A program made the translations under genes and the position numbers. The notes beneath the pieces are model-generated. The model did not search any database and had not been told where the DNA came from. It was given only the letters and a program-made list of their open reading frames with translations. Shown piece after piece: positions 42,458 to 44,752 of a stretch of DNA of 64,000 nucleotides. The stretch comes from Alphaproteobacteria bacterium. Its GTDB lineage: Bacteria; Pseudomonadota; Alphaproteobacteria; Reyranellales; Reyranellaceae. How positions within the stretch are numbered: the first letter of the stretch is position 1; each line of letters begins with the position of its first letter. The stretch covers positions 62,001 to 126,000 of the forward strand of contig VGCH01000002.1 in NCBI GenBank assembly GCA_016870115.1. Direction: 5' to 3'.

Positions 42458-42494
42458 GGGTTCCTCCGCTTTGTTGTTGGCGAATGCTAGAGCG

Positions 42495-42540
42495 GAATGG
42501 GATCAGATGGAACCGCATTCGGTCCCACCTGATCCCATTC
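42495..42540. repeat. Long imperfect palindrome upstream of the selenoprotein operon
   Basis: GAATGGGATCAG and CTGATCCCATTC are perfect inverted 12-mers at the ends of a 46-bp element whose inner arms (TGGAACCG/CGGTCCCA) pair partly. It lies between the divergent Bug and selenoprotein genes. Similar GGAATGGGATCA-type dyads occur widely in alphaproteobacterial intergenic DNA, so a REP element is more likely than an operator. Confidence 0.75.
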
Positions 42541-42592
42541 GCGCGCGCGATCGGTGTGTGTTGCAGGAGGCACGGGCGCGGCGCTGCGGGTG

Positions 42593-42630: not shown

Positions 42631-43554
42631 ATGTCCGACACTGATTTTGCGCCCGACCACGATGTGCCGATCGAGTACATGCGGCGCACGCGCGAGTACT
42701 ACCAGACGCTGGGCTTCGGCGCGCCCTATCGCTGGGCGCATCATGCCGATGTGCCCTTCGCGCGACCGGCGAAGAAGCTGGCCGCGAGCACGGTCGCGCT
42801 GATTTCGACGGCGGCGCCCTACCAGCCCGACAAGGGCGATCAGGGGCCGGGCGCTATCTACAATGCCGCCGCCAAGTTCTACACGGTCTACTCCGGCGAG
42901 ACGGCGCGCGATCACGACACGCGCATCTCCCACATCGCCTACGACCGCAAGCACACCGAGGCGCGCGATCCCAACACCTGGTTCCCGCTGCCGCTGATGC
43001 GCACGCTGGCGGGCGAGGGCCGCTTCAAGCTGGCGCCGCGCTTTCACGGCGCGCCGACCAACCGCAGCCATCGCGTGACCAGCGACGTCGATGCACCGGA
43101 GATCTACGAGCGTTGCCGGCAGGACCGCGTCGATGCGGCCCTGCTGGTGCCTACCTGACCCGTCTGCCACCAGACCGTGAGTCTGGTCGCCCGATATCTG
43201 GAGGAGCGCGGCATCCCGACCGTGGTGATGGGGGCCGCCAAGGACATCGTCGAGCATGCGGGCGCGCCGCGCTTCCTGTTCTCGGACCTGCCGCTCGGCA
43301 ACAGCTGCGGCAAGCCGTTCGACCCGGCCTCCCAGCGTCTGACGCTGGAGCTGGCGTTGGGTCTCTTCGACAGCGCCATCGGCCCGCGCACGACGCTGCA
43401 ATCGCCGGTGCGCTGGAACGCCGACGCCGAGTGGAAGCTCGACTACAACAACGTGGCACGCATGGATCCGGCCGAGATCGCCCGTCGTCGCGCCGCCTTC
43501 CAGGAGGACAAGCGTCTGGCCCTCCAGCAGCGCCAGGCGGCCGGCGTCGCCTGA
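42631..43554 (+). CDS. Candidate selenoprotein of the GrdB/PrdB reductase family (in-frame TGA = Sec176)
   Basis: Read through the TGA at 43156, the frame gives 308 residues of the glycine/sarcosine/betaine reductase component B and D-proline reductase B family. The N-terminal half has VALISTAAPY, RISHIAYDR and PNTWFPLPLMRTLAGEG. After the TGA the same frame continues with full homology: PVCHQTVSLVARYLEERGIP, then FLFSDLPLGNSCGKPFD. The TGA sits in a U-x-x-C redox motif (U176, C179), where Sec or Cys is expected in this family. A hairpin of bacterial SECIS type follows at once. Acyl-phosphate-forming partners (GrdA/GrdC) are not nearby. It is followed after four bases by a CaiB gene. Confidence 0.8.
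43156..43187 (+). promoter_or_regulatory. Sec codon and SECIS-like hairpin
   Basis: The TGA (43156-43158) is followed ten bases later by ACCAGAC-CGTGA-GTCTGGT, a perfect 7-bp stem with a five-base loop (43169-43187). The loop begins 17 bases after the TGA and has G at its second position, both within the known limits for bacterial SelB-binding SECIS elements. The stem is also coding sequence (part of HQTVSLV). Confidence 0.75.
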
Positions 43555-43558
43555 TCCC

Positions 43559-44752
43559 ATGAGCAAGCCGTTCGCGGGCGTCCGCGTCGTCGATTTCACG
43601 CGCGTCCTGGCGGGACCCTACGCCGCCTACCAGATCGCGCTCCTGGGCGCCGATGTCGTGAAGATCGAGTCGCGCGAGGGCGACGACATGCGCTTCGGCG
43701 CGCGGGGTGACGACTGGGAGCGCCGCGGCCTCGCCGCGCCCTGGATGGCGGTGAACGCCAACAAGCGCAGCCTCACGCTCGACCTCAAAAAGCCCGAGGC
43801 GATCGCCATCGTGCGCCAGCTGGTCGAGCGCGCCGATGTGGTGATCGAGAATTTCCGCCCGGGCGTGATGGACAAGCTCGGGATCGGCTACCAGGCGCTG
43901 TCGGAGCTCAATCCGCGGCTGATCTATTGCGCCGTGTCGGGCTTCGGCCAGACCGGCCCCGAGAGCGGCCGGGCCGCATTCGACGGCATGATCCAGGCGA
44001 TGTCGGGCCTGATGTCGATCACCGGCCATCCCGAGAACGGTCCGACCCGCGTGGGCTTCGCCGGGTGCGATGTGATGTCGGGCTTCACCGCGGCCTTCGG
44101 CATCGCCTCCGCGCTGTACCAGCGCACCCATACGGGCCGAGGGCAGCTGGTCGATGTCGCGATGATCGAAGCCACCATGGGCTTCCTCGCCCAGCAGGTG
44201 AGCGAGCATCTGGTGACCGGCTGCGTGCATGGCCAAAGCGGCAATCTTTCGGTCACGCGCAAACCGACCGGCAATCTGTTCCGCACGCGGGACGGCTGGC
44301 TGGTGCTGGCGGTGATGACCGAGCCGCAGTTCCAGCGACTGATGCGGGAGATCGGGCGCCCCGAGGCGCTGGCCGATCCGCGCTTCAAGGATTGGCCGAC
44401 GCGCATCGCCAACGGCCCCGCGCTGCATGCCATCGTCGAGGAGGCGCTGGGAACGGCGACGGCGGCGGAATGGGCGGAGCGCTTCGCCGGGGTGGACGCG
44501 CCGTCGGCCCAGGTGCTGTCGATTCCCGAGGTGGTGAAACTGGAGCAGATCGGCACGCGCGATGCGCTGCAGGAGATCGCGACCGAATGGGGCCCGGTCC
44601 GCCTGATGGGATCGGGCTTCCGGCTGGGCCATGGCAGCGGGTCAGTCGATCGCGCGCCACCGGTGCTGGGCCAGCACAATGACGAGATCCTGGGTGAGCT
44701 GGGCTACGACGCCGCTTCCATCGAACAGCTGCGAGGCGCCGCCGTCATTTGA
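43559..44752 (+). CDS. CaiB/BaiF family CoA-transferase
   Basis: A 397-residue family III CoA-transferase with VRVVDFTRVLAGPYAAYQIA, the catalytic aspartate D142 in AAFDGMIQAMSG, and ANKRSLTLDLKKPEAI. It is related to, but clearly distinct from, the family member at 14-15 kb. It begins four bases after the candidate selenoprotein and is surely co-transcribed with it. The pair suggests that the reductase-like protein and CoA transfer act on the same small acid; the substrate is unknown. Confidence 0.9.
   Translation: MSKPFAGVRVVDFTRVLAGPYAAYQIALLGADVVKIESREGDDMRFGARGDDWERRGLAAPWMAVNANKRSLTLDLKKPEAIAIVRQLVERADVVIENFRPGVMDKLGIGYQALSELNPRLIYCAVSGFGQTGPESGRAAFDGMIQAMSGLMSITGHPENGPTRVGFAGCDVMSGFTAAFGIASALYQRTHTGRGQLVDVAMIEATMGFLAQQVSEHLVTGCVHGQSGNLSVTRKPTGNLFRTRDGWLVLAVMTEPQFQRLMREIGRPEALADPRFKDWPTRIANGPALHAIVEEALGTATAAEWAERFAGVDAPSAQVLSIPEVVKLEQIGTRDALQEIATEWGPVRLMGSGFRLGHGSGSVDRAPPVLGQHNDEILGELGYDAASIEQLRGAAVI

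Follow-up and report, generated by a model that had tools for sequence, protein, structure and literature searches.

Selenoproteins of the proline reductase PrdB type, which carry selenocysteine (Sec) in a UxxC motif, have been counted in marine metagenomes: two surveys give 42 in the Sargasso Sea (PMC1088965) and 235 Sec and 110 Cys forms in the GOS data (PMC2398784). Proline reductase accounted for 6.4% of the selenoprotein genes in a more extensive GOS set (PMC9402790). For the alphaproteobacteria, a 2006 survey found formate dehydrogenase (FdhA) to be the sole selenoprotein in the genomes then available (PMC1794560). An earlier note on the DNA studied here had tied Sec-containing PrdB-like proteins to Stickland clostridia. 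The homology held, but because “PrdB” UxxC selenoproteins were counted in both metagenomes, such a protein outside Stickland clostridia is not unprecedented. The literature we searched, with most subscription journals outside its coverage, yielded no description of a pairing with a CoA-transferase or of an expansion into paralogues, and nothing related to selenocysteine in Reyranella. Since selenoproteins of this kind are already known, what appears new is the genomic context and the scale in alphaproteobacteria.

We analyzed a window of 64,000 nt (the whole stretch of DNA under study) from a genome here called G000. A frame opens with ATG at 42631 and reaches a TGA at 43156-43158 after 175 amino acids; past this codon, the same frame stays open as far as another TGA, at 43552-43554. 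If TGA 43156 is taken as Sec (U), the ORF would encode a single 307-aa protein with the motif LLVPT-U-PVC-HQTVSL. This puts the TGA at the first position of a U-x-x-C pair (TGA-P-V-C), exactly where the earlier note had located it. The features discussed below are these:

42631 to 43554, plus strand: putative selenoprotein gene of the GrdB/PrdB-like type, giving 307 aa when TGA 43156 is Sec; one in-frame TGA, 80 relatives aligned end to end, Pfam GRDB score over the cut-off

43156 to 43158, plus strand: TGA codon, putative Sec (U176), first residue of UxxC; TGA in 53, TGC in 23, TGT in 4 and any other codon in 0 of 80 relatives

43165 to 43167, plus strand: TGC codon, Cys179, the C of UxxC; invariant in a 26-row alignment

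43169 to 43187, plus strand: putative SECIS hairpin, stem ACCAGAC/GTCTGGT, loop CGTGA (43176-43180), 10 nt 3' of the TGA; identified by conservation, a lock on synonymous sites and covariation

43559 to 44752, plus strand: class III CoA-transferase (CaiB family), 397 aa; PF02515 E = 5e-118, its start 4 bases beyond the stop of the selenoprotein gene

Both halves of the frame aligned to single-ORF Cys relatives with no gap and no overlap, so the claim that the sequences on either side of the TGA are homologous to one family stood. The 80 relatives came from a scan of one genome per species, with query peptides that excluded residue 176. The earlier note had proposed that this column should hold Cys or TGA in homologues, and these were indeed the only codons found. 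Because TGA fell at exactly column 176 in 53 of the 80 relatives and a Cys codon occupied it in the other 27, chance is ruled out as the source of the TGA at 43156. On a tree built without residue 176, the Sec/Cys label changed 4 times, compared with ~23 changes when labels were shuffled. One of the four changes is a six-member Cys clade nested inside Reyranella-type Sec forms, several members of which retained the same neighbors.

Ordinary gene calling divides 42631-43554 into two ORFs, the second beginning with GTG at 43177, as had been anticipated for this gene when read without Sec. Such a split could be taken to mean that TGA 43156 is a real stop, whether in a pseudogene, through a sequencing error, or between two separately made fragments. 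We regard this as highly improbable, given that the same TGA recurs in 53 other genomes with Cys in the rest and that constraint continues 3' of it. Amino-acid identity to 46 TGA relatives was 76% 5' of the TGA and 71% 3' of it, and third codon positions were the most divergent in both halves. The conservation and covariation of the SECIS hairpin and the co-occurrence with SelB, both described below, also stand against a real stop. Separately, we considered TAG as an alternative Sec codon in two class-wide matches (G095 and G115); column 176 itself holds TGC and the TAGs are elsewhere, so they are not Sec codons.

All 54 TGA forms of the group had the hairpin core; the 27 Cys forms all lacked it. 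Codons +5 to +9 (CAG ACC GTG AGT CTG) showed zero synonymous variation across 48 close TGA forms and were variable in Cys forms; AGT is scarce elsewhere, accounting for 2 of 112 Ser codons in five neighboring genes. Covariation was assessed in 21 distinct TGA segments, including paralogues at ~30-55% protein identity. Both sides had changed at 4 of the 7 base pairs of the stem. The covariation score reached 0.307, whereas shuffles averaged 0.115 and 0 of 500 equaled it; when the 3' arm was shifted by one to three columns, pairing fell from 91.8% to at most 35%. In the second G000 copy (see below) and at locus L151, the stem sequence was replaced, with the CGTG loop core kept and the spacing identical. 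Folded as a single sequence, the hairpin region was no more stable than its composition would predict (z −0.83), and Rfam returned no credible match at the hairpin; the SECIS argument is thus one of conservation and covariation, not of folding energy. The hairpin of one paralogue, L150, was weak and altered. This TGA form (L150:9151-9984, genome G147) has the loop GGTCA and one mismatch, and G147 has a divergent SelB as well (299 bits); SECIS and SelB may have shifted in concert.

The genome itself encodes the machinery that the earlier note had named as a check on Sec decoding: selA, selB, selD, and tRNA-Sec (selC) were all present in G000, each above its family cut-off. The tRNA-Sec lies at C19:1472-1567 with anticodon tca and was also called as tRNA-Sec by ARAGORN, and selD is found within a longer frame of ~750-790 aa. 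Adjoining selA and selB is a formate dehydrogenase large subunit (L160, G000:C19:10000-16000) whose known Sec site is an in-frame TGA (ARI-U-HGPTVASL), an apparent independent case of UGA decoding in this genome.

Across a sample of 385 alphaproteobacterial genomes, in which SelB was scored by its family cut-off, 38 carried a family member with an in-frame TGA. SelB exceeded the cut-off in 34 of these 38 and in 0 of 13 genomes whose members or fragments are without TGA (Fisher p = 5e-9); it was also found in 20 of the remaining 334. The four TGA genomes without SelB over the cut-off were G360, G036, G287, and G336. G360 has a selB fragment at a contig end, and G036 is 77% complete. In the other two assemblies, the members (L154 in G287 and L155 in G336) have TGA at the U column and no SelB was found over the cut-off; incomplete assembly, contamination, or decay may lie behind these two exceptions, which count against the account proposed below.

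A reading of UGA 43156 as another residue such as Trp, by reassignment or plain readthrough, found no supporting point and has next to no chance of being right: the aligned residue is Cys and never Trp, the gene itself terminates with TGA at 43552, G000 has a dedicated tRNA-Sec, and Cys forms are without the hairpin. The pseudogene, sequencing-error, and Trp-recoding readings were accordingly rejected on the evidence of column 176, constraint, and the SECIS. The claim that this TGA is decoded as Sec is strongly supported by a column holding only Cys or TGA, the hairpin, the sel genes, and the co-occurrence with SelB. All of the earlier note's checks that sequence analysis could address favored its reading. 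Judged from these genomic comparisons, the Sec reading of the ORF is close to certain, and we have very little doubt that UGA 43156 would be read by SelB and Sec-tRNA as directed by the downstream SECIS hairpin.

A second TGA member, 34% identical, lies elsewhere in G000, outside the window (C2:169170-169784). At its locus (L108:8673-9863, C2), the TGA sits in LLVPV-U-PFC and is accompanied by a short hairpin with the same CGTGA loop and spacing. Three genomes of one genus (G210, G303, and G380) have six members each, every one with one in-frame TGA, and in G303 the TGA of each of the six was mapped to the U column. A long paralogue type occurs within ~15 kb of selB in many genomes and directly beside selA at L158. 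At L136:1617-3826 (G104), a TGA-form member adjoins a gene that combines DinB and FGE-sulfatase domains, as EgtB/SenA-type ergothioneine or selenoneine enzymes do.

The proposed GrdB/PrdB identity fared less evenly than the Sec reading. Pfam GRDB (PF07355) scored 29.2 bits against a gathering cut-off of 22, so the superfamily assignment stood, but the match to the curated PrdB model (TIGR04483) was 67.9 bits, below its cut-off of 300, and that to the GrdB-type component B model (TIGR01918) was 35.9 bits, below 65.45. Because both curated scores fell short, membership is partial, and the protein is best described, from its profile scores, as a distant GrdB/PrdB homologue at the superfamily level only. 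The PF07355 match ends at the model's last position, which is the residue just before U176; the model ends as if built from sequences truncated at UGA (window 42631-43155).

Two partner subunits of the Stickland reductases were also sought. GrdA (PF04723) had no match in G000, G008, or G303 and was found in a Peptoclostridium acidaminophilum control, in agreement with the earlier suggestion that this partner is absent. The pyruvoyl-type subunit PrdA/GrdE (PF09338) had no match in G000 and three in the same control. With the curated cut-offs not reached and both partners absent, the protein is therefore not a glycine or proline reductase. It could still be a component of a true Stickland-type amino-acid or betaine reductase whose partner subunits went unrecognized, as suggested by its homology to PrdB and GrdB, including the position of the UxxC, and by the fact that related CoA-transferases handle quaternary-amine acids such as carnitine. 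We consider this improbable given the low PrdB and GrdB scores and the absence of GrdA and PF09338 from G000 when the positive control worked. These failed membership tests are nonetheless compatible with related reductive chemistry, which they do not exclude, as mechanism and identity are separate questions.

A recurrent neighbor in this widespread family was a class III CoA-transferase, adjacent in 63 of 81 loci for Sec and Cys forms alike, with adjacency and orientation retained across several families. CoA-transferases of only ~30% identity adjoin paralogues at L142, L148, L153, and L155. Some loci and several paralogues have no adjacent CoA-transferase, and near other members we found AMP-dependent acyl-CoA synthetases, acyl-CoA dehydrogenases, and luciferase-like monooxygenases. 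A TctC receptor, a peptide ABC transporter, and other variable neighbors were considered as parts of the system and left out because their presence follows lineage. Upstream of the gene, at 42481-42552 of the window, is an imperfect palindrome of ~65 bp (GAATGGGATCAGATGG ... CCACCTGATCCCATTC) that is repeated at ~15 places in the genome as a REP-like interspersed element.

A structure model of moderate confidence (mean pLDDT 69.5) placed U176 between a beta-strand (169-173) and a helix (177-192); a strand-to-helix junction is the usual site of redox CxxC/UxxC motifs. In a fold search, no PDB entry matched the model at E below 0.001, and a PDB sequence search found no relative, so the fold provides no functional lead.

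We propose that Sec176 would form a U-x-x-C pair with Cys179, as the model suggests, and that its selenolate would attack or reduce a bond in the substrate, a carboxylate or CoA ester. A Se-S bridge to Cys179, the resolving residue, would then form, and a cellular thiol system would re-reduce this bridge and close the cycle. The protein would work without GrdA and without a pyruvoyl subunit, both absences being seen in G000. Given the recurrence of a class III CoA-transferase next door, the most likely substrate or product would be a carboxylic acid that is processed as its CoA thioester, and the selenoprotein and CoA-transferase would together catalyze a reductive step by which a substituted carboxylic acid is broken down. 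On this reasoning, the protein would be a redox enzyme of the selenol/thiol type whose target is a carboxylate or its CoA ester.

It is possible, though we think it less likely than the coupled role, that Sec is inserted and the protein is a general thiol/selenol oxidoreductase serving stress, repair, or detoxification, with the CoA-transferase an incidental neighbor. In its favor are the generality of UxxC as a redox motif, the several paralogues without an adjacent CoA-transferase, and the luciferase-like monooxygenases and other oxidative genes found close to some members. Against it, adjacency and orientation are held in 63 of 81 loci spanning several families, CoA-transferases of ~30% identity stand beside paralogues, and the family is one of substrate-cleaving reductases rather than thioredoxin-fold proteins. 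For the preferred account as a whole, in which a GrdB/PrdB homologue without GrdA or a pyruvoyl subunit would combine SECIS-directed Sec decoding, UxxC redox chemistry, and coupling to CoA, we estimate a probability of roughly 0.55. More tentatively, and at somewhat less than even odds, there may be a large alphaproteobacterial family of Sec enzymes, with up to six TGA members per genome, that performs CoA-coupled reductive cleavage, a chemistry distinct from that of both the Stickland reductases and formate dehydrogenase.

Mechanical gene calling cuts the gene in two, and TGA members occur in 38 of the 385 sampled alphaproteobacterial genomes, some with six. The name PrdB used in metagenome surveys implies proline fermentation, and the absent partner subunits argue against that here. 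With a recurrent CoA-transferase neighbor and with Reyranella relatives in culture, among them R. massiliensis, R. soli, and R. aquatilis with the TGA form, the function is open to direct test.

Among known systems, the “PrdB” proteins of the Sargasso Sea and GOS surveys (PMC1088965, PMC2398784) resemble ours in superfamily, in having Sec in UxxC, and in the coexistence of Sec and Cys forms. They come from open-ocean, mostly oxic samples, but are reads assigned by homology, were compared here by description rather than by sequence, and come in those descriptions with no genome context, partners, or number of paralogues. Plasmid proteins of Roseomonas haemaphysalidis and Haematobacter massiliensis, annotated as “glycine/sarcosine/betaine reductase selenoprotein B family protein,” are 60-62% identical over 88-95% of the protein, whereas their neighbors are SelO and cobalamin genes; their annotation as intact CDSs suggests that they are Cys forms. 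The selenoprotein B subunits GrdB/GrdF/GrdH of glycine, sarcosine, and betaine reductase share Sec in UxxC, and the C-terminal half of that family is matched. By contrast, the TIGR01918 score is below the cut-off, GrdA is absent, the protein is 307 aa long rather than the ~430 of GrdB, and the motif given for GrdB is UxxCxxC (PMC13188914) rather than UxxC. PrdB, the 26-kDa selenoprotein subunit of D-proline reductase (TIGR04483), is homologous over residues 47-238 and likewise has Sec or Cys at the first position of UxxC, yet identity is only ~29-35%, G000 is without PF09338, and a CoA-transferase lies next door. By sequence comparison, then, the predicted protein is homologous to the Stickland reductases and has the Sec motif in common with them, while not being a subunit of any known Stickland reductase.
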